Of a stretch of DNA of 35,088 nucleotides, positions 1-34,019 are shown piece by piece; within the stretch, counting starts at the first letter, position 1, and every line of letters starts with the position of its first letter. The translations under genes and the position numbers were made by a program. The DNA comes from a virus. The stretch covers positions 1 to 35,088 of IMG/VR virus record IMGVR_UViG_3300027797_000072; one strand, written 5' to 3'. The notes under the pieces were generated by a model. That model did not search any database. It was not told the DNA's origin and saw only the letters and a list, made by a program, of their open reading frames with translations.

Positions 1-1601
1 GTAACAGTTTGTATACGGCATGTTCTGTCAATGTGAATAATTGCCGGAATCTTTGCCTCTACACCTGGCTGACAGTTTACAGCATACATCATATGTGGGC
101 TATCATCCATGCCTCGTAGATCAAACCATTCGTGTACATGCTCTTGAAGAATTGTTCCAGCAAACGGACGGAAATATTCACGATGTTTTACTTCATTAAC
201 AAAGTCTTTACCGTCTTCATATGTAGGATTAAACAAAATTGATCTATTTCCTAGCGCACGTGGACCATTTTCACTGCGACCTTGATAGATAGTAACAATA
301 TTTTTATTCATTAACAGCTCAACAACGTCGTCGTTTGACGCATCTGTTACTTCAACATCATATTTTACTGCAATACGATTAACATCATCTACAGAATAAT
401 CATATTTAAATCCAAGATACAGTCCGTCTTTAGAATAGTCAACAGTAACATGATCTTCCATACCTTTGTAAAACATCAAGGCAGCACCAATAGCAGTACC
501 GGCATCATTGCTGATAGGTTCAATATACAGTTCAATGCCTTCGTCACGTAATTGTTCTAAGTAATAATAATTTGCCACACAGTTTAATCCGTAGCCACCA
601 CTAATTACTACTTTTTTCTGTCCAGTCATCGCTACTGATTTACGAATTAATCGTAGCACTTGTTCTTGGGTTTCTATTTGACACGCATAGGCAAGATCTC
701 TTCGATTATCTAAATAGGTCATGTCCTTTTGATAAATGTCGCTACTATTAAGATAGTCAAATAGCATTCCATTAATAACAGCGCCGTTAGGGTATGTAGG
801 AATAACAATATTTCTGTTAGCCAATGGAGCCAGAGTAGATGTATCAAATAATGGCGGAATAGCATCATTTGCTTTTCCGTATGGAAATAACCCCATAGTT
901 TTTCCAGCCTCAATCCCGCTCCAACCGCAGTACTGTGTAACTGCCTCGTACACTTTAGTAATACCAGCACGGTCAGTAATTAATGCTTCATGACTACAAA
1001 ATGGTTCATCGTACATACTACTGTCAAACTCTTTAATCAATGCGCCGGCGTTGGGTCCTCTAACGCCAAGGTGTTTATACATTGTTTTAAACGTAGCAGG
1101 ATATGAACAGTTATAAATGCTTTCGGTTTCCCACCCAGTTACATTCTCATTATTGATAGACAACGGAATAAATGTACCAGCACCGTCGACAATTAGTGCG
1201 ACCGCTTCTTCAAATCCAGATCGATAAAACGCACAGGCGGCATGTAACTTATGGTGGATATGACTAAAATCAACAACTTGAGGATGGTCAGTTGGATTTT
1301 CGTTTCGACGGATTAGTCCAAGTTTCCTTGCCAGACCAGTGTATACGTCATCTCCAGAAAAGTCAATCCTTCCTGCTGTCTCGCGTAAATTTTGAGTATG
1401 CGCAATAACCAAATAATCTAATCGATCTGTATAGTCTAATATCTTTAGCATAGCGGCAAATGGACCGCCATCGTATTTGTGTCTGCTTAATCTTTCTTCT
1501 TCTATGCTGAATACTATCTCACCATTCTTTAGTAAACATACACTGCTATTATGGCCACGTGCTAGTGCAGCAATCCATACATCTTTTTTAATTTCATTCA
1601 T
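1..1601 (-). CDS. Carbamoyltransferase, NodU/CmcH/TobZ family (C-terminus cut by window edge)
   Basis: The reading frame is open from ATG at 1601 to the left edge (about 533 codons), so the C-terminus is missing. Members transfer a carbamoyl group from carbamoyl phosphate to a hydroxyl of a sugar or antibiotic. Seen here: an N-terminal Kae1-like half with GHNSS (17-20), SIEEERLSRHK (about 32-42), HHKLHAA (116-122) and VDGAGT (138-143), and the C-terminal YrdC-like signature GPRALGNRSIL near residue 446. Family members are about 570 residues, so only a short tail should be missing. The start is supported by AAGGAT a few bases upstream; the gene begins 8 bases after the stop of the SGNH-like gene, in one minus-strand operon. 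Family assignment is firm; the substrate is unknown. Neighbouring glycosyltransferase and oxygenases suggest modification of a glycan or surface structure. Confidence 0.93.
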   Translation of the reverse strand, partial: MNEIKKDVWIAALARGHNSSVCLLKNGEIVFSIEEERLSRHKYDGGPFAAMLKILDYTDRLDYLVIAHTQNLRETAGRIDFSGDDVYTGLARKLGLIRRNENPTDHPQVVDFSHIHHKLHAACAFYRSGFEEAVALIVDGAGTFIPLSINNENVTGWETESIYNCSYPATFKTMYKHLGVRGPNAGALIKEFDSSMYDEPFCSHEALITDRAGITKVYEAVTQYCGWSGIEAGKTMGLFPYGKANDAIPPLFDTSTLAPLANRNIVIPTYPNGAVINGMLFDYLNSSDIYQKDMTYLDNRRDLAYACQIETQEQVLRLIRKSVAMTGQKKVVISGGYGLNCVANYYYLEQLRDEGIELYIEPISNDAGTAIGAALMFYKGMEDHVTVDYSKDGLYLGFKYDYSVDDVNRIAVKYDVEVTDASNDDVVELLMNKNIVTIYQGRSENGPRALGNRSILFNPTYEDGKDFVNEVKHREYFRPFAGTILQEHVHEWFDLRGMDDSPHMMYAVNCQPGVEAKIPAIIHIDRTCRIQTV

Positions 1602-1609
1602 ATATATCC

Positions 1610-2530
1610 TTAAAAGCCTTCCATCGGAAACGGCCAATTTAATTTATTTGCTGATACTGGAAAATTAGTGCGTTTTGCTAGCATAAGTTCAAACGATTGT
1701 TTATTAAAATTAAACTTAGCATGAACATGCTGTATTGCTTCAGCTAGCTCTTCACAATTTGCGACAGTTTCATCTGATAACTGTAACTTATCAGTTAGTT
1801 CTTGTTTAACCCATATTAAATGTTGAGACACGCTTGGATGTGTGTCTAAGAATCTTTTATTTTTAAGTACAGTATCAACAAAATCGTAAGTTAATTCTGG
1901 AGTTTGTTTAGCTACTAGTTCCATAGGCGCCAACCAATGCGCGGCATGATCTTGCCAAATTGGTTTATCGTATACTTCAAGTTCTGGAATTTTAGTCCAC
2001 GCTACTTTGTCAATACCTAATTCGTAGGGCCTTACTAAATCAGTATGTTCACCAATACCGGAATTAGTTCTTAAGTCGGTGCCCATGTTTCTAATATCGC
2101 CAATACTGGTCATGTACCATTTACACCCTGTGGATTTTAATAATCCCTGTGTAAGTGTTATATGATTCAGTGTATGCATGAAATACGCAGGTTCAAAGAA
2201 AAATGTTTCAATCCATTTTTTACCGTATAACTTTTCGTTAATGTAATTAAACACACTGCCGCTAGTTTTCCAGTGACTAATGCGTTCTGGCAAACTGTGC
2301 ATATGAAAAAAATCATGACGTAAGTGACTGCTCCATTGTACTATAACAGTGTCTTCTTCAGTAAACTTATACCGAATATTTGCCTCAGCAACTCGTTCTG
2401 CTATTGCTCGATTGCCAATGCCCGATAATCCCCAGTTCTTACTAAAGTCAAAGTGTACACTAATTAAATCAGCCCATGTAGGCCACGAGTAACTGGTATA
2501 ACTACATCCAAAGGTAAAAAGTCTTTTCAT
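1610..2530 (-). CDS. SGNH/GDSL-like hydrolase
   Basis: This 306-residue protein has the layout of an SGNH-fold esterase or acyl-hydrolase. Block I is FTFGCSYT with the likely nucleophile Ser10; the Gly block is SGIGN (36-40); VIVQWSSHLR (63-71) resembles the third block; and DTHPS with Asp229 and His231 resembles the catalytic Asp-His block, although only one residue lies between Asp and His where the classic motif has two. No signal peptide or membrane segment is seen, so it probably acts in the infected cell or on the virion. It starts 3 bases after the glycosyltransferase stop and has no clear ribosome site of its own, which suggests translational coupling. Such enzymes add or remove acyl groups on glycans; the substrate is unknown. 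Confidence 0.68.
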   Translation of the reverse strand: MKRLFTFGCSYTSYSWPTWADLISVHFDFSKNWGLSGIGNRAIAERVAEANIRYKFTEEDTVIVQWSSHLRHDFFHMHSLPERISHWKTSGSVFNYINEKLYGKKWIETFFFEPAYFMHTLNHITLTQGLLKSTGCKWYMTSIGDIRNMGTDLRTNSGIGEHTDLVRPYELGIDKVAWTKIPELEVYDKPIWQDHAAHWLAPMELVAKQTPELTYDFVDTVLKNKRFLDTHPSVSQHLIWVKQELTDKLQLSDETVANCEELAEAIQHVHAKFNFNKQSFELMLAKRTNFPVSANKLNWPFPMEGF

Positions 2531-2533
2531 AAA

Positions 2534-3544
2534 TTATGTTGCCGAACAAGATGTTGGTGCGTTAGCAGTGGTAATCATCAGAGGTTCAGTTGTCTGCCCG
2601 GCTCTTTTAAATTTAGCAACACCTTTGTTTACAGATGAAATAATAGCGTCTTCAATTTTATCATTCATTGCCATAATTCCATCATTGCCTCGATCTGCCA
2701 CTTCGTCCATGGTAATTCTAATAGGGCTATATTTGCGAACAGTACCGCCCATGTCTAGTACATCAAACTTTTCAACATTTGGATACGATACATTAATGCT
2801 GAATGTTGAACCTACAACTACAGTAGCAGGAATATCCAAAGAATACGCCATATGTTGACCCACTGAATCACAACCTAAGAAATAATCTGCGCCAGCAATA
2901 ATGCCAGCCCATTGACGTAAGCTAACATTTTGTGGATGGGCCACCAGATCTTTACAACCGTGTTGTTGGAAATCAATGCCAACTTCACTCATTAGAATAA
3001 CACCAAAATTCTTTTGAAGTTTTCTAATGATATTAATAGTATGAACTCCCTCAAAGCTACGACCAGACGGGTCAAAGATTGAGTTATTTTCAGCTCTAAC
3101 GCCACGGCCGAACGGTTGAACTACCACAATCTTATCTTTTTTAGTTTTTTCTTTGACTTCTTTAATAACGTTGTAGCCGCCAAACAGCTCTTCATTTGAC
3201 AATCTAATAGTAGGTTTAGGTAAATCTCTAACACCTTTATCGTTAATAAGAATATCAAACGCCTGTGCCAATGAGCACTTTTGATTAAAATATTCCCACA
3301 CTCGATATGGCTCAGGGGTTACTAAATCCATATTAATTAGTTTGTCTTCAAACAAGTTTTTGTGCCAGTGGTCATATGCCCTGGCATGTAATAGTGGATG
3401 ACCTTTATAAAAATCAGTGCCGCCCTCACATACAATGATAAAATCATTGCCATTTTCTTCAGCGTATTTTTCCAATGCAGGGATTGAACAGACCACTCTG
3501 CCAGCACCACCGTTGATAAAAAATGCTTTATGTCTTTGAGTCAT
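2534..3544 (-). CDS. GT9-like (heptosyltransferase-type) glycosyltransferase
   Basis: The 336-residue protein looks like a GT-B fold glycosyltransferase related to family 9 (ADP-heptose:LPS heptosyltransferases). The N-terminal half opens with FFINGGAGRVVCSIPALEKY (8-27), equivalent to the family's G-x-GD/A-x-P-A-L start. The second half begins with VVQPFGRG (141-148) and has the donor-site pattern ADYFLGCDSVGQHMAYSLDI (219-238), matching the GT9 D-S-G-x-x-H-x-A-x-A element, followed by PATVVVGST. The classical Gly-Asp of the first loop is replaced by Gly-Ala-Gly, so the family is distant. AGGA lies 7 bases before the ATG. It is the first gene of the three-gene minus-strand operon, and the donor and acceptor are not predictable. 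Confidence 0.72.
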   Translation of the reverse strand: MTQRHKAFFINGGAGRVVCSIPALEKYAEENGNDFIIVCEGGTDFYKGHPLLHARAYDHWHKNLFEDKLINMDLVTPEPYRVWEYFNQKCSLAQAFDILINDKGVRDLPKPTIRLSNEELFGGYNVIKEVKEKTKKDKIVVVQPFGRGVRAENNSIFDPSGRSFEGVHTINIIRKLQKNFGVILMSEVGIDFQQHGCKDLVAHPQNVSLRQWAGIIAGADYFLGCDSVGQHMAYSLDIPATVVVGSTFSINVSYPNVEKFDVLDMGGTVRKYSPIRITMDEVADRGNDGIMAMNDKIEDAIISSVNKGVAKFKRAGQTTEPLMITTANAPTSCSAT

Positions 3545-3561
3545 AAATTGTCCTATAATTA

Positions 3562-3600
3562 TAATACACTATAATTTAGCATATTTTATACAAGGAAGCA
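3562..3600 (-). promoter_or_regulatory. AT-rich region upstream of the minus-strand glycan operon
   Basis: On the minus strand this stretch contains TATAAAATATGC, CTAAATTATAG and TATTATAAT before the AGGA ribosome site of the glycosyltransferase gene. It is the only place a promoter for the three-gene minus operon would be expected. No clean late octamer is present and the -35 assignment is ambiguous (TTGCTT lies 17 bases before TAAATT). It is therefore a weak candidate for a sigma70-type promoter. Confidence 0.3.
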
Positions 3601-3615
3601 AGAGTTTTGAGTCTC

Positions 3616-4224
3616 TTAGTACGCACCTTCAACACTAAAGTTAGCACTAACTGTAATCCTGCGCGACTTACTTTTATTAGGTAAAACATAGTGTGACGCC
3701 CAACTTGGAAAAATTACCAATGTGCCTTCTTGTACCGTTGGTATAAACTTTCCTTGACTGAATGAATTAAAAATTCTGTTTATACCAGTAGCTTGTACTA
3801 TTGAAAAATTTGAATTTTCAAAAATTAGTTGTCCTCCACCATTAGTATCTTGTGGTAGCTCTAACATGTACGCACACGAAAACGATCTGTTAGGAAACGC
3901 ATGATCGTGTATTTCTTGGTATTCACCCTGGTCGTATAAATTCATCCATACTTCGTTACTATGGACTTTATATTCACATAACGGTTCTAGACTATCAAGA
4001 TACTCCTGAATGTTTGGTTGTATTGCTTGATAAAACACATCCCATGGTATTAGCGCATTAGAGTCTTGTTGGCATGTAGACTTACAATTTGAGTAGATCC
4101 AAGGGTTCCCAAAATTAGTAGCATCGTTTAAAAATGGTGTTAAACTGGTTACTATTTGATCATGCGCAGTGACTTGACCAACATAAAAATGTGTAGCCCA
4201 TTCACTCTTTGTGTGATTTTTCAT
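3616..4224 (-). CDS. 2OG-Fe(II) oxygenase-like protein (TIGR02466-like)
   Basis: This 202-residue protein resembles small phage and bacterial 2-oxoglutarate/Fe(II) dioxygenases. It has a first metal-ligand region EIHDHAF (His106, His108) followed by the strand SFSCAYMLELP, and a distal block FPSWASHYVLPNKSKSRR with His178 and Arg188/189 in the usual positions for the last iron ligand and the 2OG-binding arginine. The first site reads HxH rather than the classical HxD, as in the two neighbouring oxygenases. It likely hydroxylates a protein, sugar or nucleotide; the substrate is unknown. It lies divergent from the other two oxygenases. A TTTAAATA octamer ends 4 bases before the ATG and no Shine-Dalgarno is visible. 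Confidence 0.78.
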   Translation of the reverse strand: MKNHTKSEWATHFYVGQVTAHDQIVTSLTPFLNDATNFGNPWIYSNCKSTCQQDSNALIPWDVFYQAIQPNIQEYLDSLEPLCEYKVHSNEVWMNLYDQGEYQEIHDHAFPNRSFSCAYMLELPQDTNGGGQLIFENSNFSIVQATGINRIFNSFSQGKFIPTVQEGTLVIFPSWASHYVLPNKSKSRRITVSANFSVEGAY

Positions 4225-4228
4225 TCTA

Positions 4229-4236
4229 TATTTAAA
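4229..4236 (-). promoter_or_regulatory. Late-promoter-like octamer TTTAAATA, 4 bases before ATG
   Basis: The minus strand reads TTTAAATA-TAGA-ATG for the gene starting at 4224. The octamer matches the T4 late consensus TATAAATA except at its second position. The spacing to ATG (4) is the same as at 8397, 21184 and 30528. By T4 geometry the transcript would begin at or beside the start codon. Confidence 0.5.
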
Positions 4237-4303
4237 TTTTTATATTTTAAAATTAGACAAATGTGACTACAATCCATAATGTGTGACCCCTAGAGTAGTC
4301 CTA

Positions 4304-4311
4304 CATAAGTA
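4304..4311 (+). promoter_or_regulatory. Late-promoter-like octamer CATAAGTA, 5 bases before ATG
   Basis: The sequence CATAAGTA-GTTTA-ATG precedes the first plus-strand oxygenase gene. It differs from NATAAATA at one position (G for A) and has the 5-base spacing seen at three other genes. The 92-base gap between the divergent genes holds no other obvious signal. Confidence 0.4.
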
Positions 4312-4316
4312 GTTTA

Positions 4317-4892
4317 ATGCAACCAATAGTAACAGAGATTAATATTGAATTAAAAGTGCCAGTTCGAATATGGGAGTTTTCTCTTGAGCACCTCGGTGCT
4401 GATGTTCAAACTAATATTCATAATTCAATTCTAGATATTGTTAAACAAGGGCATTGCCATAGAGAGCCTGAAAAAACTCGTGCTGATCGAACCACTACTA
4501 TGAGTCAGTGGTGTATGCACAAAGAATATCCAATCTTTAAAAAAATATCTGATCGAGCTGAATCAGTAATACAAGAATGGTTTATGATGAACGCTCGAAT
4601 GACTTTGCTTACAAATCTTACAGCATGTTGGTATGCTAGTTACGAAGTTGGCCAGCAAACAATTCCACACGAACACAGTCCGGATTTATTTGCGTTTTCC
4701 TACTATGTACAAGTTGACGAAAACACTACTCCGTTATTATTTCCGGGTTATCCTGGATACTCTTATCAACCTCGACAGGGATATGGGGTTATTTTTCCTG
4801 GCTGGTTAACACACCAAGTGCTGCCGCATAACTCTACAACCCCAAGAATTGTTGTTGCCGGCAACATCGAAGGCACTGCCTTACAAGAATGA
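4317..4892 (+). CDS. 2OG-Fe(II) oxygenase-like protein, tandem copy 1
   Basis: The 191-residue protein has the same C-terminal signature as the minus-strand oxygenase: PHEHSPDLFAFSYYV (His118, His120), then QGYGVIFPGWLTHQVLP with His166 and Arg177 for iron and 2-oxoglutarate. The N-terminal half includes WCMHKE and RAESVIQEW, shared with the next gene. The downstream gene has the same length and places all these residues at identical numbers, so the two are tandem duplicates. Reading frames overlap by the ATGA at 4889-4892, implying translational coupling. The substrate is unknown; context suggests modification of virion proteins or glycans. The upstream octamer lies 5 bases from the ATG and no ribosome-binding site is visible. 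Confidence 0.75.
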   Translation: MQPIVTEINIELKVPVRIWEFSLEHLGADVQTNIHNSILDIVKQGHCHREPEKTRADRTTTMSQWCMHKEYPIFKKISDRAESVIQEWFMMNARMTLLTNLTACWYASYEVGQQTIPHEHSPDLFAFSYYVQVDENTTPLLFPGYPGYSYQPRQGYGVIFPGWLTHQVLPHNSTTPRIVVAGNIEGTALQE

Positions 4893-5464
4893 CTATGATC
4901 CCTCCTATCGTAAATGAAATTTTAGTAGACTTAACGGTGCCAATAAAGCTGTGGGAATTTTCCTTAGACAATCTACCAGCACACCGCCGCAAGGTCATAC
5001 ATCAAGATGTTTTAAATATTGCTCAAGATCAAGGTGATAAGCAAGGTGGCACCTTACGAGTACAGGCACAAATGACTGACTGGTGTATGCATCGAGATCA
5101 CGCATCTTTCCGAGAAATTGCCAACCGAGCAGAATCTATTGTACAACAGTGGTATTTAGACAACGCTCGAATGACGTTAAACACTAAAATAACTGCCTGT
5201 TGGGCAGTAAGTTATGCTCGGGGGCAACACTCAATTACTCATTCACACCAACCAGATCTGTTTAGTTTTGTATATTATGTAGCAGCCGATGAAGCTTCGG
5301 CTCCGCTAGTATTCCCAGACCCGCCGTGTTACTGTTATCAGCCCCGAACTGGATACGGTATTATATTCCCTGCTTGGTTAAATCACATGGTTCCTACACA
5401 AGAATCAACAGGTACTAGGGTAGTAGTGGCAGGTAATATTCAAGGCATTGCCTACCGAGAATAG
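4889..5464 (+). CDS. 2OG-Fe(II) oxygenase-like protein, tandem copy 2
   Basis: This 191-residue protein aligns almost without gaps to the preceding gene product. The metal region is THSHQPDLFSFVYYV (His118, His120) and the distal block is TGYGIIFPAWLNHMVP with His166 and Arg177. Conserved upstream blocks are WCMHRD, NRAESIVQQW, NARMTL and TACW. ATG at 4889 overlaps the previous stop (ATGA); an alternative start at 4895 would remove two residues. All predicted catalytic residues are kept in both copies, so neither looks decayed, and divergence between them suggests different substrates. The reaction is inferred from the fold signature only. Confidence 0.75.
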   Translation: MTMIPPIVNEILVDLTVPIKLWEFSLDNLPAHRRKVIHQDVLNIAQDQGDKQGGTLRVQAQMTDWCMHRDHASFREIANRAESIVQQWYLDNARMTLNTKITACWAVSYARGQHSITHSHQPDLFSFVYYVAADEASAPLVFPDPPCYCYQPRTGYGIIFPAWLNHMVPTQESTGTRVVVAGNIQGIAYRE

Positions 5465-5505: not shown

Positions 5506-7983
5506 ATGAATATTGCGAATTTTTTCTTAAAAGGGTTAAACAAGACCCTAAAATTAATAAACGGAACTAACCTTTCCTACGCAGGACCATGGGTAAAAGT
5601 ATATCCAAATACAATAATTGACAGCTGGTATGTTGGCGACTTTTCAACAGCTACATATTTGCTTACTATAGAGCACGACTCTAACAAAAAAGAAGTAATG
5701 CATGTAAACGTAGTAGCCAGGCCGGATCAAGCAAGTTATACTATCTACGGACGAACAAGTATTGATGATGAACTAATAATATTAGACGCTTCAGTAAACA
5801 ACAGTATATTCACCTTAAAAGCATCCCCAACTGACGCAATGTTTACGGGTGTAAAAGTTACAAAATTAGTGTTTTACGGGGAAACAATTAATCCATTAAC
5901 GCAGGCAACAATAGCGTCAACTGGGCCCGGTGATACCGGTGGCGCCGGCGGCAACACTGAAGGCGGTGGTACAGGAGGTGGCACTTATACTTTACCAATA
6001 GCAGGAACTGGTCCTCTCGGCACGTTAGGCGGTGTTAAGGTTGACGGAACTAGTATTACTATCAACAGTGGAGTAATATCATCTAGTGTTGCGCCTGTTA
6101 GCAGATCAACAATATCAACTACTGTAAATTTAGCCGCTGGAGTAGACACTACTGCTACAGTAGTTATGGCAAAAAGTTATACACTGTATAGTATTCAAAC
6201 GTCAGCGGCGGCATGGGTAACAGTATATGTAAATCCTGCGTCACGAACTGCAGATGCTAGTAGAGAAATTAATACTGATCCACTACCGGGAGCAGGTGTA
6301 GTAGCTGAAGTCATCACTGCTGGCAATGAAACAGTACTAATGAGCCCAGCAGTATCCGGATATAATTTTGACACTCCGACTACTAACAATGCTTACTTAA
6401 AAATTTATAACACAAGTGGCTCAAGCTCTGCTATAACAGTTACGTTAACTTTCTTAACAGAGTCAGGAAACAGTAGTAGTATTATTAGTAGTGGTAGTGG
6501 CGTTGTAAACTCGGGCACATCAGGCAGATTAGCATATTATCCGGCCACTGGTACTACTGTTGACGATCTAGCACTAGTTTCATGGGGCTCTAGTACACTC
6601 AGCGTTACCGGGGCAATAAATGTATCTGCGCAAAAAAACTTTGTAAGATTTCATTGGGACACCCTTGCTGATCTTAACAGCGAAGTAAGTCCAGTAACTT
6701 GGCATGGTATGCTTGCTCATGTACACGAAACTGGCCGTGTATATGTAGCACATGCGGCAGCTTGGGTTCCGTTGGCTCTTCAATCAGATATTGTCTCTGG
6801 TGGCGGAACATACACACTACCAACAGCCACTACTAGTACGCTTGGTGGAGTTAAGGTAGATGGATCAACAATCACAATTAATGGCAGTGGAGCAATTACT
6901 GCTAACTACTCTACCTATTTGTTACCAACAGCCACTACTAGTGTATTAGGCGGCGTTAAGGTAGATGGATCAACTATTACTATTAGTGGCAGCGGGGTAA
7001 TAAGCTCTGCTTCATCTTACACACTACCAACAGCCACTACCATTGTGCTAGGCGGAGTTAAGGTAGATGGCTCAACAATCACAATCAATGGCAGTGGAGT
7101 AATTTCAGCCTCTGTTACTGGTGCGTTTGTATACAAGGGCACGTGGAATGCTAGCACTAACACTCCTACTTTAACTAACGGAATTGGCGTAACAGGTAAT
7201 CAATATGTTGTCAACGTGGCGGGCACACAGAATTTTGGTGCTGGCAATATAACATTTACTGTGGGTGACTATGTACTGTACAGCGGTACAGTTTGGCAAC
7301 AGATTGCTGCAGGCGGGATAGCTGCCGCAGGTTCATTAACTGGACCAACATTAGCATCGAATGTAGTTTCTAGTAGTCTAACCAGCGTAGGTACATTAAC
7401 TAACCTTACGGTGACTAATACCATTACTGGCAGTGTTTCAGGAAGTGCTGCCACTGTAACTAGCATCAGTGGAAATACTATTACCAGTGGTCAGGTAACT
7501 ACCGGGTTAGGGTTTACCCCCTACAACGCAACTAACCCAAGTGGTTATATTAGTGGCATTGATTCAACTGCTGTTGTTAACGCATTAGGATTTACTCCTG
7601 TTCAGGCTAGTACTATAATTCCAGCCATTACACGACTCGATGTAACTGCTCCTACATCGTTAGCATACTTATTCAACAATCAGTATTCGGGCGATAACCC
7701 TACAATATATGCTATCAGTGGTACCACTATTGCTTTTAGTTTAAATGTAGCAGGCCACCCGTTCTTAGTACGAACAAGTGGCGGATCAAATTACAATACT
7801 GGATTAATTCATGTGAGTACAACCGGTGTAGTTAGTACAGGGTCAAATGCGCAGGGCAAAGTGTCAGGCACGCTCTACTGGCAAATTCCACAAGGAACCA
7901 GTGGCGCCTATCAATATATATGTTCCAATCACGGCGGCATGGTCGGGGTCATTACTGTTAAACAGATTAGCAGTTTACCCTAA
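5506..7983 (+). CDS. Tail-fibre-like structural protein with LGGVKVDG repeats and cupredoxin-like C-terminus
   Basis: This 825-residue protein is probably a fibre or baseplate-associated virion component that contacts the host. An N-terminal domain (1-135) is like those of cyanophage structural proteins. A Gly-rich linker (about 140-165) follows. Four copies of a roughly 32-residue repeat with core LGGVKVDG(S/T)xITI occur, one near 160-193 and three near 435-535. Between them lies a segment with WHGMLAHVHETGRVYVAHA (about 402-420), common in phage fibres. A KGTWNASTNTPTL domain (about 545-605) follows. The last 110 residues contain GHPFLV and YICSNHGGMVGVITV, giving the His, Cys, His and Met ligands of a type-1 copper site. 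GCTAAATA and AAAGGG precede the start. Confidence 0.85.
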   Translation: MNIANFFLKGLNKTLKLINGTNLSYAGPWVKVYPNTIIDSWYVGDFSTATYLLTIEHDSNKKEVMHVNVVARPDQASYTIYGRTSIDDELIILDASVNNSIFTLKASPTDAMFTGVKVTKLVFYGETINPLTQATIASTGPGDTGGAGGNTEGGGTGGGTYTLPIAGTGPLGTLGGVKVDGTSITINSGVISSSVAPVSRSTISTTVNLAAGVDTTATVVMAKSYTLYSIQTSAAAWVTVYVNPASRTADASREINTDPLPGAGVVAEVITAGNETVLMSPAVSGYNFDTPTTNNAYLKIYNTSGSSSAITVTLTFLTESGNSSSIISSGSGVVNSGTSGRLAYYPATGTTVDDLALVSWGSSTLSVTGAINVSAQKNFVRFHWDTLADLNSEVSPVTWHGMLAHVHETGRVYVAHAAAWVPLALQSDIVSGGGTYTLPTATTSTLGGVKVDGSTITINGSGAITANYSTYLLPTATTSVLGGVKVDGSTITISGSGVISSASSYTLPTATTIVLGGVKVDGSTITINGSGVISASVTGAFVYKGTWNASTNTPTLTNGIGVTGNQYVVNVAGTQNFGAGNITFTVGDYVLYSGTVWQQIAAGGIAAAGSLTGPTLASNVVSSSLTSVGTLTNLTVTNTITGSVSGSAATVTSISGNTITSGQVTTGLGFTPYNATNPSGYISGIDSTAVVNALGFTPVQASTIIPAITRLDVTAPTSLAYLFNNQYSGDNPTIYAISGTTIAFSLNVAGHPFLVRTSGGSNYNTGLIHVSTTGVVSTGSNAQGKVSGTLYWQIPQGTSGAYQYICSNHGGMVGVITVKQISSLP
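6808..7110 (+). repeat. Three tandem copies of a ~100-base coding repeat (LPTATTSxLGGVKVDGS)
   Basis: Three near-identical segments of about 100 bases each encode Y-T-L-P-T-A-T-T-x-x-L-G-G-V-K-V-D-G-S-T-I-T-I followed by a short Gly/Ser spacer. A more diverged fourth copy lies upstream at about 5980-6084. They form the shaft-like part of the fibre protein. The high DNA similarity makes this a site where copy number could change by recombination. Confidence 0.85.
7620..7980 (+). other. Region encoding a cupredoxin-like C-terminal domain
   Basis: This marks a domain within the fibre gene. The encoded segment has a strand with GHPF, then a GTLYWQIP strand, then Y-I-C-S-N-H-G-G-M-V-G-V-I. This follows the plastocyanin/azurin order of copper ligands: one upstream His, then Cys-x2-His-x2-Met. 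Similar C-terminal domains occur in cyanophage structural proteins, as far as I recall. Copper binding is not shown. Confidence 0.6.
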
Positions 7984-8490: not shown

Positions 8491-8514
8491 ATGGCCGCAA
8501 GAGTAATGTCATGA
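8491..8514 (+). other. Seven-codon reading frame MAARVMS overlapping the next start (ATGA)
   Basis: ATG at 8491 is preceded by GAGATCAAAA, the same ribosome-site spacing as at the sheath gene (GGAGATCACAAAATG) and the giant gene (GGAGATATAAATG). The frame stops after seven codons, at a TGA overlapping the ATG at 8511. Removing five bases (one copy of ATGTC) would fuse it in frame to the next gene as MAARVMSVVQKQL. It is either a short leader frame or the original start of the fibre gene disrupted by a 5-base insertion or a sequence error. Confidence 0.45.
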
Positions 8515-8948
8515 GTGTAGTACAAAAACAATTAACATCAACCGCGGGGTTTAGAAGTCCCGGATTTAGTGTAAACTCAACCGGTGCGTTAATCGCCAAC
8601 GGCATTGATACAATTAACGGGCTAGCGTTTAACGGATTACAAGTATTAACACCAACAACTCTTGGAAGTACAGTTGTTGACAGCAGTTTACAAACTCTAG
8701 GAACATTAACTGGACTAACAGTTAATAGTACTGGAACCGTGTCAATCTCTGCTGCCGCTATCACAGTAGCAACAACCGGTACAATTGCAATTACCTCAGG
8801 AGCAGTTGGCGCAATTAACAACGTAAATATTGGGGGTACAACTCCCGGTAACGGAACATTCAACACATTAACAGCCAGTACTAATATATACATCGGCAAT
8901 ATTAACGTTAAATCGTACGCCGCGGCTTTAGCAGTAGCACTTTCATAA
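8511..8948 (+). CDS. Short fibre-like structural protein
   Basis: The 145-residue protein is low-complexity and beta-rich, with Thr/Ser/Gly/Asn content and short alternations such as TLGTLTGLTVNSTGTVSIS and TTGTIAITSGAVGAINNVNIG typical of phage fibre shafts. N-terminal KQLTSTAGFRSPGFSVNSTG resembles the start of other marine phage structural proteins. The segment TPTTLGSTVVDSSLQTLGTLTGLTV echoes SLTSVGTLTNLTV in the 825-residue fibre. No enzymatic motif is present. ATG at 8511 is in ATGA overlap with a seven-codon frame that has the better-placed ribosome site, so the true start may be upstream or the gene may be translated by reinitiation. A CATAAATA promoter for the next gene overlaps its stop codon region. 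Confidence 0.7.
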   Translation: MSVVQKQLTSTAGFRSPGFSVNSTGALIANGIDTINGLAFNGLQVLTPTTLGSTVVDSSLQTLGTLTGLTVNSTGTVSISAAAITVATTGTIAITSGAVGAINNVNIGGTTPGNGTFNTLTASTNIYIGNINVKSYAAALAVALS

Positions 8949-8968: not shown

Positions 8969-11900
8969 ATGTCAAAGAAAAGAATAGCAAATTACGTGTT
9001 TCAACCGGGTGTGTCGGGCACAAGCAATGCCTACCCCAATGCGTATTCTTTATTAGAAAGCAACAAAACTTTTATCAAGAAAGAAGCTAATGCTTATATT
9101 GCTCAACAAATTATTTTAGACACAGCAAACAATATATATCCAAACGCAGTTTCCTTATTAACTTTAAATAGAACATTTGTAATTGATGAAATATCAGCAT
9201 GGACCAGTTATCAAGTTGCTAATAGTATTGGTATTTTTAGCGGATACACTTACACAGCTACTGAAATTGCAAAATGTAAAAGAGACGTTGGTTATTTAAT
9301 TGACGCATTAATTTATGATGTTCGATACGGTGGTAACGAACGTGTTAATTTTGTAGCAAGTCAGTATTATCTAAGCGGTGTAGTTCAAGTTATCAATATA
9401 CCAGTTGAGGTTCAAATACAAACTCAACTATGGAATATAATTAGAAATTATATACTTACAAAAGTATTGTACGCATCTCAACAAAGCCCAAGTCTTAGTT
9501 CACAAAACATATCCGGCGGCGCAGCCGAGGCCGGCGCAGTTACTCAAGTAGCAACTTTATCAACAACAGTTAGTAATGTGATCTCTGGCGGATTATCAAC
9601 TATTCCAGCTACTATATATTCAGCATATAATTTTCCTGGATATACATACGACGCGGCCAAGTGTGAACGTGATATAAATTATATACTTGACGGGTATCTT
9701 AACGATTTGCGCTACGGTGGTAACGTACAAACTAGACTACTTGCTAGCAGATACTGGGACGGCGAAGTTCCTCAAGTAGACGGTGATAGATCACCTGAAA
9801 TTGCCACGCATACATTTATTCGTAATTTAATTAATACTTATATTTTTACACAGGCAGCATATACACCCTTACAAGTTTCTTTTCCAAGACAAATTGTAGG
9901 TGGTATTATTGGCGAAGCTGGAGCAACTGATCGTGTTGTGACTCTTGCTGAAATAGTAATTTCAGTAATTCAGTCAGGACTATCAGCAGTCCCTGTTATA
10001 GCATACGGTGTTACTACAATTAAACTTCAAGGCCAATATACACTTGATAAATTGCTATTAATTACTAACGCAACTAATAATCAAATCATTTATAACTTTA
10101 GTGATCCGTTACTGGGCGCAACCGCAAGTCTTGAAGCGTCACATAATAGTAACGGTAACGATAGTGATACTGATTACCCAGCATTCTTACAAGTAACAGA
10201 CAGTATTACAACATTACAGTTAGTTGCTGATACTAGTACATGTTTGCCAACTGACGATATACAGATATTTGTAGAGGGCGAAGCACAAATAACAAGACCG
10301 TACGATTTTGGTACTGATGCCATCGAACGTTTACGTGTTGCGCAACCACAGTCCATGCTTGACGCTGACTTTGAATACGGACTACAACCTACTAAGTGGC
10401 AGGCAATTGGAGTTGCTCGCGGATATCCGTCAGTGTACGAAATTCCCGGATCTGACACTGCTGTACTTACTGTAGTAACAGACGCATCTGCTGGCACCGG
10501 CGGTGTTGGCCAATCGCTGATAACAGTAACAACGCAAGGGTCGCACGGATTTGTTGCAGGTGGACCAATTACTATTCGAGCATTAGCAAACACAATTTCT
10601 GGTTTCAGCCGCGCAGAAGGTACGTTTATTATTGTTGCAGTCCCTACTGCAACTACATTTAATTATTATGCTACAGCTAAAGTGGGAACATTTAACGGGC
10701 AAGTATTGGCCACATCGTATAGTCAGTTACGTAAAGGCGCATTCTATACCGGAGCTGCAATTGGCACTCCGTCGTTCTCTGTAGTAAGTAACGGCATTGC
10801 TAGTTCGTTTGCTACAAAATTTATTACTGCTATAAATACTGACCAAATTGCAATTGCTGGAATATTGCCGGCATTAGGTGCTCCTCTTACTGGCACTGGA
10901 ATTAACCCAGGCACACAAGTATCAGGAACTGTCGGCGCAGGCGGCCTAGCAGTTACAGCTAACTTGGGGCTTCCAGTCGGTATTGGCGACACGGTGATAA
11001 ACGTAATAGATCCAACCGGAATTTTAGAAGGTATGGCCATTGATAATGGGACCGGTACTGCGGTATTTGTAAGTAGCATTTCAGGGTCAGATATTAATTT
11101 AACGCAGCCAGTAACTACTGCTCGGTCAGGAAGTACACAAACTTACACAAATATTTCAGGTACTAACATTACACCTAGCGGCACTGGGGCAACTTTTAGT
11201 GTTGATAGAGTTGACAGCCTTTATGCTAATTTACAAATTGTTAATGGCGGAAATAGTTATACCGTTAACAATAAAATTAAAATTCTAGGGTCAAACTTAG
11301 ACGGTGCCGATGGTACTAATGATATAATTTTAAAAGTAGCATCAGTTATTGATGTTAGTTCATACACAAATGTACCATTTAGCACTACTACTGGATTGGG
11401 GATTACCGCAAGTTTTGATATTACTATAAACGGAACTAATGACTATGTGGTTTTATTAAATAATCCTGGTTCGTTGTTTGTAGCAGGGGATGGTATAACA
11501 ATTAACGGATCTTTGTTAGGCGGTAGCGATACAGTAAATGATGTAACTTTTAATGTTGCTACAGTAACTGCAACATATATTGCTGTACCATTTAGTACAA
11601 CAGACAGTGCGTTAGGGGCCGGCGCAACGTTTGATGTAGTGCGGACCGGAGCAACATACTCAGTAACTGTTAACAACGGTGGTACTGATTTCCAACCAGG
11701 TGATTCTATTACAATCCTTGGAAGTGCGTTAGGCGGTGTTGATGCTGTAAACGATTTAACGTTTTCAGTACTAACTGAAATTGGACTTGTTATTGATACT
11801 ATAACTGGAGTCACCGGCACAGCAACCGGCCCAGGTAGTATTGTTACAATTGACACCATTGTGGGCACTGGTGTTATTATTGTTGGTCGAATTGCCACCG

Positions 11901-14900
11901 CAACTATCTTATCCGGTAATAGTGTTATTGGCGAGCGTTCATATTCTGGATTATCACAAGATGCTACAAACGGCATTGGAGCCGGAGCAACCTTTAATGT
12001 GGCCACAAGCGCAGGCAGTTATGTAGTAACAATTGTAGCATCTGGTAATGATTATTTGTTTGGAGATACACTAACAATTTTAGGTAGTGTGCTAGGCGGT
12101 GTTGATGTAGTAAATGATTTGACTATCACCGTTACCTCTGCGACCAGCGCCGGCGGTAACATTTTAACATTTGATTCAGCCGGTGCTCCTGGCACTAATG
12201 ATACTACATTCACGCCATTGAGTGGGGTAAACATAACAACAGGTACTGGAGCGTCGTTTGACATTACCCGCACTGGCGGATTGTATACTATAGTTGTTCC
12301 TAATTTAGCTGGTAGTATTTACAGTGTTAACGATACAATTTTAATTACGGGAACAACTCTTGGAGGCACTGACCCTGCTAACAATTTAACTGTTACAGTT
12401 ACTAGTGCCGGACTAACCGGAGACATTCTTGGAGTTTCAAGTAGCGGCACTGCTGTATCGGGATCAACGATTGAGTTTTGGTCTGCAGCGGCCTTAAGTG
12501 ACGTTACCTCTGCTTCAATTCCAGACGGCACATCAATTAGCACCGCAGCCATTGCTGTTTTACAAATATCATTTACAAATCCGCATGGACTAGTACCAGG
12601 AGCGAGCCTGGTAATTGATATTACTAGTGCCGGCACTAATCATGCGTTAGCCAAAGGCCCATTCTATGTAGAATCAGTACCATCGTTAACCACGGTTCGT
12701 TATACTGCTAGAGCCACAGGCAATATTGATACTGGCACTACTTTACAAGGAATTGTTTACGCTCGTCCGGACAGTTATTTTATTCATAGACCTTATGACG
12801 GCGGTGTACAATTAGGAACCGGCGGACCACAACACGGTGTGCAAGCAATTCGTATGAGTAAGAAATATATTCGTTACCAATCTGGTAAGGGTATTATGTA
12901 TACTACTGGAGCACTATTTGCGCCAAGTTATAACTTACAATCAATTGAGGCAAACGGAACAGCCGTTGGATCGTTTATTACAGTAACAACTGATGACGTG
13001 GATCACGGATGCCAAATTGGTGGCCGAGTGAGAATTATTGGAGTTGATACTGCAGGGTATAACGGCGAATATACAATTGTCGACGTGTTAACTGAACGTA
13101 TTTTTAAAATTCAGGCTTATACTACTCTGGCAAACGTTTACGGATCTATCACTACAGCGGCCCAAATGTCAATTTTAAGTTGGCATGGCGCATCAGTCCG
13201 CGCTGGAACATTTGACGACCAAAATGGTATGTACTGGGAGTACGACGGCAGAGAATTAGCAGTAGGTCGTAGATCAAGTACTCTTCAACTGTCAGGTGTA
13301 GCAAGTATTCCGCGAGACGGAAATACATTAACTGGGGTTAACACTCGGTTCCGTGACCAAGTTAAGGCCGGTGACAGGATTGTTATTAAAGGGATGACTC
13401 ACGTAGTGTCATCAGTATCTAGTCAAACACTTCTAGCAGTGACCCCAGACTATCGCGGCGCGAACAACGCAACTGCCGCTAAAATATGTTTGGTTCAAGA
13501 TTTAATTATTAAACAAAGTGAATTTAACTTAGATCGTTTAGATGGCACTGGCCCAAGTGGTTATAATTTAGATATTACTAAGATGCAGATGATCGGTATG
13601 CAATGGTCATGGTATGGTGCTGGATTTATTGATTTCATGTTAAGGGGTTCAGACGGTAACTATGTATTTGCTCATCGTATACGTAACAGTAACACAAATA
13701 CCGAAGCTTACATGAGAACTGGTAACATGCCAGTTCGTTATGAAGTTATTAATGAAGGCGCAATTGGAAAACTACGTCAATCTATTACTGCTACTCAAAC
13801 AACAATTCCGTTACAAGACGCATCAGCATTTCCAGATGAAGCTGGCATTGTATACGTTGATAACGAATTAATTGCGTTTAGTGGAAAGACTAATAATACA
13901 CTAACTGGATGTACACGGTCTGCTCCAATGGTAAACTTTGTTGGAGGTGCCCAACGTACATTTAGGGCCGGGTCAGCAACGGTCCATGAAGTAAACACTG
14001 GCGTAATTTTAATTAGTAATACAATTAGTCCTATTATTAGTCACTGGGGTTCTGCGATGTTAACAGACGGACGCTTTGACGAAGATCGTGGATATTTGTT
14101 TAACTACGCATCTACTGGTATTCAAGCGTCTACTACAAAACAAACTGCGTTCTTAATTCGCCTGGCACCAAGTGTATCTAATGCTATTATTGGAGACCTA
14201 GGCGAACGAGAACTTATTAACCGTGCGCAATTATTGTTAAAATCAATTGCTGTGACATCAGATACGGGTACAGGTGGTCTAGTTATTGAAGGTGTATTGA
14301 ACCCACAAAACTATCCAATTGACCCAAGCGCAATTTCGTGGGCAGGACTAGCAGGTAGTTCTGCAGGTGGCCAACCATCTTTTGCTCAAGTAGCACCGGG
14401 TGGTTCGGTATCATGGGCCGGTGGCGCAACTGTAACTACATCAACAGCTACTACTACTGCGGCGTTAACAGGCACTGCAACCGTTCCTAACAATGCGTTG
14501 TTTGCTCAAGGTATTGGGTCAAGCATACTGTACGTAACCAAAGCAAGTTGGGACACCCTAGGGGCATCAGCTGGTTTTAGTGTTGCTGCCTCTGAGACAA
14601 AGTATCCGGCAGGTACTACAGTGTCATCAGTGACAGCAAATCCTGCTCCAGTTGCTACTACTTTAGGGTTAATTACTGGCACTGCGACTATACCGCCAAG
14701 CCCTTTCTTTAAAACTGGAAATGCATCAAACATTTTATACTTTACTCAAGCTTCATGGGTTGCGTTAAACGGCGCAGTAGGTACTAGTATTTTTAGTAAT
14801 GATTACCCTGCTGGTACTACAGTATCTAACGTTGCTGGCCCTGCGTTTGCAGCTGGTCAAAGTTATTATACAATTACAACCAGCGCAGTTTCGAATAGAA

Positions 14901-15988: not shown

Positions 15989-16440
15989 TGCGTTATTATA
16001 TCAACTAGGTCAAAGACAGTTTGTAATTTATTACGGATTGTCTTACTGTTGAAACTATTGCGCAACCCTTGATGTATAGGTTTTGGTGGATGATCAATTG
16101 TAGACCACCCCCACGCAATATGTTCGTCGCTTAAAATAGGAATAAATTCATTTTCTATTACACACAAGTATGTGTGAAAATTAAACACTTTGTCGTTTGA
16201 TACAAATGTTTCTAAAGGAATTGTTTTTAGAATTTTAGGCAGAGTGCCAATTTCTTCTTTGATTTCACGTTGAAGGCCTTGCCATGGATTTTCGTCTATT
16301 AGATTAGTACCGCCTACTAATCCCCATGTTCCAGCATGTTTGCCTTGAGCTTTTTGTAATAATAGAACTCGTCGTGTTGATTTAGCGTAGAACAATGCTC
16401 CGCTACAAACAATACGATCTTTTAAAGTTCTATTCTCCAT
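15985..16440 (-). CDS. Nudix hydrolase
   Basis: The 151-residue protein has a near-complete Nudix box at residues 44-66: G44, E50, R58-E59, E62-E63 and G65 fit G-x5-E-x7-R-E-U-x-E-E-x-G-U, with Thr66 in place of the last hydrophobic residue. Upstream, GALFYAKSTRRVLLLQK and WGLVGG are the usual first strands. Nudix enzymes cleave nucleoside diphosphates linked to another group (dNTPs, NADH, ADP-ribose, capped RNA); the substrate cannot be told here. It starts inside the end of the gp15-like gene (19-base overlap), so it is the last gene of the gp14-gp15 late operon. Its stop overlaps the giant structural gene by 4 bases. Confidence 0.9.
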   Translation of the reverse strand: MENRTLKDRIVCSGALFYAKSTRRVLLLQKAQGKHAGTWGLVGGTNLIDENPWQGLQREIKEEIGTLPKILKTIPLETFVSNDKVFNFHTYLCVIENEFIPILSDEHIAWGWSTIDHPPKPIHQGLRNSFNSKTIRNKLQTVFDLVDIITH

Positions 16441-33075: not shown

Positions 33076-34017
33076 ATGAGCAACTTTAACGGACTTTTAA
33101 GAAAATATCTCGACATTGTTAACGAGGCAGAATTACGAACACCAGATCAAATTGCTGCATCAGCAGATTATTTAACAGCAAACGACGCAGGACGTAATCC
33201 AAACGCAGGACTAGAGCCAGGCGATCCACGTTGGCGCGGCGCACCCCCAGCGGCGGCAGCACCAGCGGCGGCAGCACCAGCGGCAGCACCAGCGGCTCCT
33301 GCTAGCCCAATGGCAGATAAGACACGCATGCCAGCATCGGCTGCGCCTAATGCACCGGCGGCGGCTCCTGCGGCTGCGGCTCCAGCGGCTGCGGCTCCAG
33401 CTAAGATGGCAGATGGCGGCCCTCCAGCCACTCCTGAACAATTAAAATGGTTAGGTGGCGCCGACCCAACTGATAAGTTTATTCTTGCTAGAATGAGAAG
33501 TGCTGTACCAAATGCCCCAGCGGCAGCACCAGCGGCAGCACCAGCGGCATCGGCCCCAGCTATTCCTCAAGCAACGGATCAAAAAGTAAGCGCAGATAGT
33601 CAACAAGGACAAATGTTGGCTGCTCAAACTGCCGGAATGGAGGAACCAGCGGCGGCAGCGGCACCTGCGGCAGCGGCACCTGCGGCAGCACCTGCGGCAC
33701 AACAGGCAGCGAAACCTAGAGTTCCTGCTAAATCAGACCCAGCAGTGCAAAAGATACAACAAGATCTAATCGCAAAAGGCGCAAAGATCAAAGCAGACGG
33801 TGTAATGGGCCCAGCTACACAAGCGGCTATGAAACAATATGGACAAGGTGCTAAACCAGCTCCGGCAGTACCAGGAAAGGCGGCACCAGCAGGCGGAGCA
33901 ACAGGTACTATGGGAGCCAGTGATCCAATGACAGGAATGCCGTATAGTCCTATGGCAGAAAGTGTGTATAGAGAAGATCAAGCACTAGCACGTATTATTC
34001 AGTTAGCAAGAGGTTAA
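33076..34017 (+). CDS. Ala/Pro-rich protein with PG_binding_1-like domain and prohead-protease-like N-terminus
   Basis: The 313-residue protein begins FNGLLRKYLDIVNEAEL; I-V-N-E-A at 14-18 fits a T4 gp21-type cleavage site. Long Ala-Pro linkers occur at about 56-75, 94-112, 148-160 and 191-213. Between them is KWLGGADPTDKFILAR (about 125-140). At 221-256 is VQKIQQDLIAKGAKIKADGVMGPATQAAMKQYG, which follows the PG_binding_1 pattern of a helix, then D-G-x-x-G-P-x-T-x-x-A. The end, SVYREDQALARIIQLARG, resembles tails of other marine phage proteins. It shares start, middle block and PG domain with the next gene, so the two are paralogues. Possible role: a head-internal or ejected wall-binding protein; not shown. 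Confidence 0.75.
   Translation: MSNFNGLLRKYLDIVNEAELRTPDQIAASADYLTANDAGRNPNAGLEPGDPRWRGAPPAAAAPAAAAPAAAPAAPASPMADKTRMPASAAPNAPAAAPAAAAPAAAAPAKMADGGPPATPEQLKWLGGADPTDKFILARMRSAVPNAPAAAPAAAPAASAPAIPQATDQKVSADSQQGQMLAAQTAGMEEPAAAAAPAAAAPAAAPAAQQAAKPRVPAKSDPAVQKIQQDLIAKGAKIKADGVMGPATQAAMKQYGQGAKPAPAVPGKAAPAGGATGTMGASDPMTGMPYSPMAESVYREDQALARIIQLARG
33241..33705 (+). repeat. Four GCGGCAGCACCA-type Ala-Pro tandem-repeat tracts
   Basis: Near 33241-33297, 33355-33402, 33517-33560 and 33647-33705 the coding strand is built of short units such as GCGGCAGCACCA encoding A-A-A-P. Units keep the frame, so changes in number alter only linker length. The GC content is well above that of neighbouring genes. 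Confidence 0.85.
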
Positions 34018-34019
34018 TA

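Follow-up and report, generated by a model that had tools for sequence, protein, structure and literature searches.

Gene content of the window

The window, the whole 35,088-nucleotide stretch from the IMG/VR virus record IMGVR_UViG_3300027797_000072, opens with six accessory open reading frames ahead of a group of fibre genes, arranged as an earlier note on this DNA had described. Three of them form a compact minus-strand trio with gaps of 8 bases (1602-1609) and 3 bases (2531-2533), also as described. The first gene (1..1601) encodes the N-terminal 533 codons of a NodU/CmcH-type O-carbamoyltransferase, assigned by Pfam, PHROG and motifs; its 3' end lies beyond the window edge, and its counterpart in the near-identical locus L010 has 601 codons. 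The ORF (3..1601) opens with an ATG, upstream of which the sequence is rich in purines. The product scores 119 bits against PF16861 (cut-off 27) and 94 bits against PF02543 (cut-off 24), and the HHxxH metal site and the SExGPRALGNR motif are intact.

The second gene (1610..2530, minus strand) encodes a putative sugar O-acyl esterase or acyltransferase. Its AlphaFold model (pLDDT 91.4) matches TesA with a Z-score of 12.4 over 168 residues (rmsd 3.3), indicating an SGNH/GDSL fold. No Pfam match above cut-off was obtained for the window protein, and none of 40 family members matched the SGNH Pfam families. Canonical SGNH/GDSL proteins carry the blocks GDS, GxND and DxxH. In this family Ser10, Gly37 and His231 are present in 40/40 members and Asn40 in 39/40, GCS replaces GDS, and the acidic residue (Asp in 23, Glu in 17) precedes the histidine by two residues, not three.

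The third gene (2534..3544, minus strand) encodes a glycosyltransferase (GT; phrog_8954, T4-GC 302) with the signature GGAGRV. Its AlphaFold model (pLDDT 84.4) aligns with the GT9 structure 3tov at Z 22.1 (277 aligned residues, rmsd 3.8) and with WaaF (20.5), TibC (18.8) and WaaC (18.7), the best non-GT9 GT-B enzyme reaching 12.3; the predicted fold is clearly GT9. By sequence the protein falls below the Pfam GT9 cut-off (10.8 bits vs 22), and 23 of 42 family members match the GT9 profile at E ≤0.1 (best 3.5e-6). All 42 keep GGAGR, and all 42 have an arginine where WaaC and TibC have their catalytic aspartate after the first strand. The alignment with WaaC is ungapped at this site, with 14 of 300 shuffles reaching its score, and WaaF gave no comparable ungapped alignment there. 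Heptosyl transfer is thus not assured, because the aligned aspartate of WaaC and TibC (Asp-110 in TibC, whose role is described in PMC4358343) is absent. The donor-binding half keeps the pattern CDS.G.H...GST and can be aligned, though weakly, to that of WaaC (48 columns, E 0.003, probability 10%). Among 37 members 71 columns are invariant, and Cys225 is the sole invariant cysteine. PDB sequence searches with the GT and SGNH profiles gave no relevant match, and no canonical late-promoter motif was found before the GT, nor any excess of it in the scan. Relatives of the GT also occur in cellular genomes, at seven loci in marine MAGs (50-61% identical).

The remaining accessory genes encode 2OG-Fe(II) oxygenases, two at 3616..4224 (minus strand) and 4317..4892 (plus strand) and a tandem paralogue of the latter at 4889..5464 (plus strand; 96/191 identical residues). 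All three exceed the PF13759 cut-off and carry HxH...H...R. The fibre genes that follow on the plus strand are all Thr/Ser/Gly-rich. The gene at 5506..7983 belongs to the fibA family, matches tail PHROGs and forms one flank of the conserved fibre locus. A small fibre-like protein (8511..8948) has no significant PHROG match and lies in the position of family f6, which an HMM recognises in the near-identical locus L091. The long virion structural protein at 8969..15988 (family FIBL) is covered for the greater part by the PHROG 'virion structural protein', which is classed with head and packaging, and close to its N-terminus it matches 'short tail fiber protein'.

A constant gene pair in a variable fibre locus

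The earlier note had read the six accessory genes as a single pathway that may act on the fibre or on a host surface glycan. We reject the single pathway, since only the GT and the carbamoyltransferase are constant; the co-occurrence on which the proposal turned holds nearly always for this pair and the fibre type, and the six-gene group does not recur. The T4-like samples are the best matches of larger result sets and are related to one another. In 45/45 dereplicated GT lineages, the carbamoyltransferase lies on the same strand as the GT, separated from it by nothing (13), one SGNH gene (23, counting L038, where this gene overlaps its neighbour), two SGNH genes (8) or one oxygenase (1). Among the best 80 of 124 GT loci (L009-L088), four show no carbamoyltransferase (L011, L032, L039 and L053), and each of these stops at most 1.25 kb past the GT. 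Conversely, the GT is present in 78 of 80 loci centred on the carbamoyltransferase (the best 80 of at least 583); the two misses, L254 and L258, begin at a contig end, inside SGNH genes.

The pair sits within a tail-fibre locus, close to genes for Gly/Cys-rich proteins and for tail-assembly-chaperone-like proteins. Phage_tail_APC matches 20 of 26 of the latter at E ≤0.001, and their alignment was too little conserved for use as a search query. The SGNH gene accompanies the GT in 31/45 lineages, and 10 of 49 dereplicated SGNH loci (from the best 80 of 385) have no GT or carbamoyltransferase inside the fetched locus. The window oxygenases are local extras: their families occur in 5/88 (4317..4892) and 4/88 (3616..4224) clustered loci and in 2/45 dereplicated lineages. 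Oxygenases, halogenases, CN hydrolase, methyltransferase and SGNH genes vary from locus to locus, and L010 carries a flavin halogenase-like gene.

A cysteine-rich partner protein

The fibre as target fared better, since the GT, the carbamoyltransferase and the fibre type almost always co-occur from any starting gene, inside the fibre locus, which makes the fibre the likeliest target. The protein that tracks the GT is, however, a Cys-rich one, different from the Thr/Ser/Asn-rich fibre originally suggested. In L010 it is encoded at 15947-18973, and the window's counterpart lies beyond its cut end. The GT is found in 73 of 77 loci centred on the Gly/Cys-rich protein (the distinct ones among the best 80 of 273), which are Cys-rich by selection because the search pattern contains CCC; in each of the four misses, loci of 7.7-8.7 kb, the contig stops just past the Gly/Cys or chaperone gene.

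From the GT side, 42/42 GT-centred loci longer than 20 kb (not dereplicated) contain an ORF that reaches 12 or more Cys per 150 residues. No Gly/Cys ORF was found in 17 of the 80 GT loci, each with one cassette side cut to less than 2 kb. Two apparent exceptions, L292 and L311, have no Gly/Cys profile match, yet carry Gly-rich proteins with 25 and 17 Cys at a greater distance; in L159 and L160 the Gly/Cys genes likewise lie further out; and L158, an 8.3 kb contig, has the GT and no Cys-rich ORF. GT-less comparison loci (16 SGNH and 8 phage) reach at most 8 Cys per 150 residues; 12 of the 16 SGNH loci are fair comparisons, as three others (L108, L111 and L128) start within the cassette and L147 comes from a contig that carries a GT elsewhere, and only L171 and L343-L345 among the phage loci are fibre loci. 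With a similar cut-off, one of seven annotated named loci classed as without a cassette was positive, that of Aeromonas phage HJ05, which bears a distant GT. As a control, P-RSM4, S-CAM8, S-SSM5 and S-MS29 carry a carbamoyltransferase relative (35-40%) and no GT, and their Gly-rich proteins have 0-2 Cys per 150 residues.

Distant GT homologues directly adjoin Cys-rich tail proteins in HJ05 (23 Cys, 559 aa) and in the Vibrio phages D505 and K479 (41 and 39 Cys) and SBP1 (41 Cys, 925 aa). These phages have no carbamoyltransferase, and their Cys-rich tail proteins are of other make-up; cysteine, not glycine, is the feature common to GT-adjacent proteins in T4-like, Aeromonas and Vibrio (Schitoviridae) phages. 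Used as single queries, the GTs of HJ05 and D505 retrieved no relatives.

The domain, the neighbouring genes and the place in the locus suggest that the fibre tip is the Gly/Cys-rich protein; Gly_rich_2 matches 12 of 24 such proteins at E ≤0.001, the other half falling short. The divergent proteins of P-SSM2 and L084 were missed by the first clustering and identified by eye. In the alignment, 447 of 632 Cys stand in columns that are less than 90% Cys, and the Cys count is odd in 66 of 118 proteins. Strictly conserved columns hold 29% of Cys, 26% of Gly and 0% of Ser or Thr, so that some of the cysteines may equally well be structural or bind metal.

Proposed function of the cassette

We propose, with a probability of roughly 60%, that the minus-strand trio is what the window shows of a larger cassette for fibre glycosylation in T4-like (Kyanoviridae-type) phages, a cassette which, judged from its genes, probably adds a carbamoylated heptose-like sugar. 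Late in infection, the GT would take a sugar from a nucleotide donor and attach it to the Cys-rich fibre tip; in relatives with genes for a kinase, a nucleotidyltransferase, a cupin, an HAD protein and an epimerase, the donor would be heptose-like. The carbamoyltransferase would cap a hydroxyl of this sugar with a carbamoyl group, and the SGNH protein may act on acyl groups of that glycan by addition, removal or transfer. The oxygenases and the halogenase-like gene of L010 would be optional tailoring enzymes, and the decorated tip could alter or protect receptor binding. A hypervariable fibre locus and shared ancestry could also hold such genes together without enzyme-substrate pairing.

The heptose-like gene set is found in some marine relatives: in five named cyanophages and in three single-cell virus records it adjoins the pair or lies at most 8 kb away. 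A PfkB kinase was detected in 4 of 14 large contigs tested, and because most of these are without the full set, the donor may come from the host or may carry a different sugar. A psbA/psbD-type match was present in 5/5 named cassette phages, in 0/17 large or window-like contigs and in 1/12 further IMG/VR contigs, mostly fragments. These counts are suggestive of a gene set that follows the cyanobacterial host, a pattern confounded by kinship and by the extent of contigs. A search of the open-licence literature for cyanophage, heptose and carbamoyltransferase together found no paper; such work may exist in print.

Several known systems resemble parts of the cassette. The GT shares its fold and, in weak alignments, the donor-side DS..H with the ADP-heptose:LPS heptosyltransferases WaaC and WaaF, and some phage relatives bear heptose-type activation genes; it differs in its place in a fibre locus, the Arg for the N-terminal Asp and its score below the Pfam cut-off. 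TibC, a bacterial autotransporter heptosyltransferase, has a similar GT9-like fold and, according to PMC4358343, its type acts on an adhesin, much as is proposed here for the phage GT. We nevertheless reject membership of the BAHT/TibC group, as the phage GT has neither the N-terminal beta-barrel (residue 1 of the model aligns at TibC 91) nor the conserved four-Cys iron finger, and is without the aligned Asp. Mycobacteriophage capsid and tail glycosyltransferases exemplify phage-encoded virion glycosylation; the idea of a phage decorating its own virion is common to both, whereas the enzymes differ and the candidate targets here are Cys-rich fibre-locus proteins. The carbamoyltransferase has domains and active-site motifs in common with the NodU/CmcH O-carbamoyltransferases TobZ, GdmN and, by annotation, WapO, but the phage clade is bound to this GT and to fibre genes.

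A more specific form of the fibre-glycosylation reading, which we offer tentatively and consider doubtful, is that the GGxGRV GT9-fold family comprises cysteine GTs placing a heptose-like sugar on thiols of Cys-rich tail proteins; in the T4-like branch the Cys-linked sugar would then be O-carbamoylated. Cysteine-linked transfer is proposed because Arg replaces the catalytic Asp of GT9, and an Asp base is perhaps dispensable because thiols ionise easily. The Cys richness common to GT-adjacent proteins, the many Cys outside strictly conserved columns and the frequent odd Cys counts speak for this form, and the strictly conserved Cys columns speak against it. We found no paper on S-glycosylation of phage tail fibres in the open-licence literature, though work may exist in print.

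It is unlikely that the cassette instead modifies host LPS or capsule, blocking superinfection or freeing progeny, and sits beside the fibre genes through a shared receptor. LPS heptosyltransferases are among the closest solved structures to the GT, the SGNH fold suits glycan O-acyl chemistry, and carbamoylated heptose is known in Pseudomonas LPS, where the putative carbamoyltransferase WapO is thought to act on the core heptose (PMC8005017). Such a role does not predict the association of the GT with Cys-rich structural proteins that is seen in unrelated phages. The host surface glycan, the other target named in the earlier note, is possible and is disfavoured for marine Synechococcus phages, because phages such as Sf-FS3 carry the heptose-like set while the LPS of the Sf-FS3 host WH8102, like that of CC9311, is described as heptose-free in PMC4515613.

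Independent morons, gathered in a hypervariable fibre locus with no common substrate, would account for the accessory genes that differ between loci and for the SGNH genes found apart from the pair; this suits the oxygenases but not the core, in which the GT and carbamoyltransferase stay together in every lineage and the GT and Cys-rich protein are linked in both directions, and for the cassette as a whole we regard it as improbable. It is very improbable that the GT-fold protein is a non-enzymatic chaperone or lectin-like assembly factor for Cys-rich fibres, with the carbamoyltransferase acting elsewhere: the invariant Arg and the weak GT9 profile match would fit, but the donor-binding half is kept, many columns are invariant and nucleotide-sugar genes lie near the GT in several relatives.

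Carbamoylation of 5-hydroxymethylcytosine in DNA, as by the MetaGPA enzyme, a phage protein of the same family (PMC8670742), is rejected as very improbable: relatives in the cyanophages S-RIM44 and S-SCSM1 do adjoin thymidylate synthase, but GT-linked and thymidylate-synthase-linked enzymes are split by a branch with SH-aLRT 99 (in a quick tree, the latter rows being partial pieces), the partners here are the GT and fibre genes, none of five named phages has a thymidylate synthase annotated adjacent to the pair (in P-SSM2 one lies about 7.6 kb downstream), and carbamoyltransferases of unmodified contigs had, according to that paper, unrelated genes on their flanks, group 1 glycosyltransferases for example.

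Phages usually match host receptors by sequence change. If the fibre-glycosylation reading is true, host recognition in aquatic viruses would gain a chemical layer from a portable enzyme pair, and the presence of heptose-type sugar genes in some cyanophages despite the heptose-free LPS of marine Synechococcus would be explained. A Cys-linked glycan, if true, would to our knowledge be a new kind of virion modification. The idea is addressable in the named phages S-CAM1, S-CAM3, S-SSM7, P-SSM2, Aeromonas phage HJ05 and Vibrio phage SBP1.

Gene content and the conserved unit

The window, a 35,088-base virus record, belongs to a T4-like phage and carries, beyond its fibre genes, a NUDIX gene along with genes of neck, sheath, tube and terminase type (assigned by eye, except the terminase, which clusters with a named one). 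The six accessory genes lie where the earlier note had placed them, with the gaps between genes that it gave. The carbamoyltransferase and the three oxygenases were identified from Pfam and PHROGs, and identification of the glycosyltransferase (GT, 2534-3544, minus strand) and the SGNH protein required structure prediction. The GT model (pLDDT 84.4) is a GT9 fold, with Z scores of 22.1 to a GT9, 20.5 to WaaF, and 18.8 to the heptosyltransferase TibC, while the best non-GT9 enzyme reaches only 12.3. The SGNH-like model (pLDDT 91.4) is SGNH/GDSL (Z 12.4 to TesA), and its three Foldseek matches at E ≤0.001 are all acetylesterases of this fold. Elsewhere in the window, the C-terminus of the fibre protein at 5506-7983 gives a sub-threshold plastocyanin/azurin match (PF00127, E 0.024), a possible cupredoxin-like tip, and an adjacent protein pair at 33076-35087 has long Ala/Pro-rich repeats and a common short domain resembling, by eye, a peptidoglycan-binding one.

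All open reading frames were clustered in 88 loci, comprising the best 80 of 124 IMG/VR GT loci, two SGNH loci, five named cyanophage loci, and the window, and dereplication at 95% GT identity left 45 lineages. A carbamoyltransferase is found near the GT on the same strand in all 45, separated from it by nothing (13 lineages), one SGNH gene (23), two SGNH genes (8), or one oxygenase (1). The usual order is a long fibre gene, two small proteins, Gly/Cys-rich proteins and chaperone-like partners, the GT-SGNH-carbamoyltransferase cassette, a fibre gene of the family at 5506-7983, a small fibre-like gene, a long structural protein, NUDIX, and neck-type genes; in 14 of the 45 lineages, including that of the window, the cassette keeps this position but points the other way with respect to the fibre genes. 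At E ≤0.001, 12 of 24 Gly/Cys-rich proteins hit Gly_rich_2, and 20 of 26 of their partners hit the tail-assembly chaperone family Phage_tail_APC. The cluster described earlier is real and sits within a bigger fibre locus that is strongly conserved. The proposed six-gene pathway is not the unit, since GT and carbamoyltransferase are paired in every lineage and the window's oxygenase families occur in 2 of 45 (5 and 4 of the 88 loci).

The window ends within the carbamoyltransferase, and its nearest relative, the near-identical locus L010, runs on with a flavin-dependent halogenase-like gene directly after it (13746-15245, PF04820) and then Gly/Cys-rich genes. A marine viral halogenase is already known. 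In two further loci, L292 and L311, the GT and carbamoyltransferase genes are interspersed with related oxygenase genes and several halogenase-like ones; oxygenases and halogenases are therefore part of the same kind of locus, though not needed. Several flavin-dependent halogenase-like genes are seen in L355 and L356/L357. Other additions include a gene for a sedolisin-like protease (kumamolisin-type, by eye; family 30) amid the fibre genes, at 5622-7193 in L025 and in four more loci, and a radical-SAM-like ORF (CNAACIWC, by eye) at 8974-9990 in L084, immediately before the GT, possibly another modifying enzyme.

Co-occurrence from each side of the cassette

Centring the search on the carbamoyltransferase gave a GT in 78 of 80 loci (the best 80 of at least 583), the other two beginning within the cassette. 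Among 77 distinct loci centred on Gly/Cys-rich genes (from the best 80 of 273), 73 have a GT; the other four contigs stop directly past the Gly/Cys or chaperone gene, and no GT was found anywhere else on them. For 49 dereplicated SGNH-centred loci (from the best 80 of 385), both partners were present in 36, the carbamoyltransferase only in 3, and neither in 10, and SGNH genes therefore also occur outside the cassette. In L148 (6001-6897) and L155 (5986-6918), same-family SGNH proteins stand alone, not near fibre genes, and are followed by a large gene and then one that resembles UDP-glucose dehydrogenase (names by eye). In an annotated collection of 50,697 phage records, the 23 with a carbamoyltransferase at ≥41% identity are the identical 23 with a GT at ≥38%.

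In a quick tree with several long branches and partial rows, a branch with SH-aLRT 99 separates the GT-linked carbamoyltransferases, whose active-site motifs are intact, from relatives linked to thymidylate synthase. One ungrouped row, L147, was placed within the GT-linked clade, and its contig has a GT beyond the fetched locus.

Outside the T4-like phages, GT homologues 25-27% identical to that of the window occur in Aeromonas phage HJ05 and in Vibrio phages, the latter with 31 records by a query with the D505 protein. GGLGRV is kept in the two distant GTs aligned, and no carbamoyltransferase is annotated in HJ05, D505, K479, or SBP1, the four loci inspected. PHROGs assigns the GT neighbour to tail fibre in HJ05 (E 2e-6) and to tail protein in D505. 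Additional GT homologues (50-61%, L334-L340) are in contigs labelled as Neomarinimicrobiota, Euryarchaeota, Actinomycetota, and Flavobacteriales MAGs; these may be phage contigs that ended up in the bins of their hosts.

Cysteine content of the GT neighbours

The Gly-rich partner of the GT is 9.8% Cys, with a median of 25 Cys (120 proteins). A Gly/Cys-rich ORF is present in 45 of 45 GT loci (not dereplicated) with ≥5 kb past the cassette on each side, and an ORF with ≥12 Cys per 150 residues in all 42 GT loci over 20 kb. Two apparent exceptions, the carbamoyltransferase-centred L292 and L311, turn out to encode Gly-rich proteins containing 25 and 17 Cys when more contig is read. In P-RSM4, S-CAM8, S-SSM5, and S-MS29, a 35-40% carbamoyltransferase relative lies beside fibre genes without GT, and the Gly-rich proteins have 0-2 Cys per 150 residues. 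The gene touching the GT has 23 (HJ05), 41 (D505), 39 (K479), or 41 Cys (SBP1), in each case the most Cys-dense of its locus, and in single-cell record AG-345-O18 the neighbours contain 73 and 31 Cys but no more than about 10% Gly; Cys rather than Gly therefore tracks the GT.

In the Gly/Cys alignment, 185 of 632 Cys are in columns ≥90% Cys and 201 more in columns of 50-90%, and the Cys count is odd in 66 of 118 proteins. The sequences indicate a conserved core with many variable Cys, a pattern that by itself would fit acceptor or structural roles. A Cys is also found among the last five residues of 10 of 42 GTs, such as SCSAT (window) and SCCSK (HJ05), at the low-confidence end of the GT model.

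Sugar donor, catalysis and target

A set of sugar genes, comprising those for a PfkB kinase, a nucleotidyltransferase of cytidylyltransferase fold, an NAD epimerase, a cupin, and a HAD-like protein with the annotation phosphoheptose isomerase, lies beside or ≤8 kb from the GT-carbamoyltransferase pair in S-SSM7, Sf-FS3, S-CAM1, S-CAM3, P-SSM2, and three single-cell records. This set reads as nucleotide-heptose synthesis, as its annotation partly says. Among 14 large cassette contigs, PfkB is present in 4, a nucleotidyltransferase in 9, and an epimerase in 7. In S-SSM7, the product of SSSM7_130 (T4-GC 306; L002 3796-4131) is annotated as phosphoheptose isomerase, yet looks by eye like a HAD phosphatase and had no Pfam match; the adjoining cupin might perform the isomerase step. 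The LPS cores of Pseudomonas provide a precedent for carbamoylated heptose (PMC8005017). Heptose is absent from the LPS of marine Synechococcus (PMC4515613), and on that account phage-made heptose would need another destination.

The donor side of the GT is kept, in a weak alignment. All 42 GT members have Arg at the position of the WaaC Asp, and the WaaF N-terminus does not align likewise. The corresponding Asp-110 is required by TibC (PMC4358343), leaving as options a base other than this Asp, an acceptor of another kind (a thiol, for instance), or a protein inactive as a transferase. The sugar identity, the linkage, and the order of reactions are matters of inference. The earlier note had proposed the fibre or a host surface glycan as target; from the genetic linkage across several phage lineages, we infer that the target of the cassette is the virion fibre.
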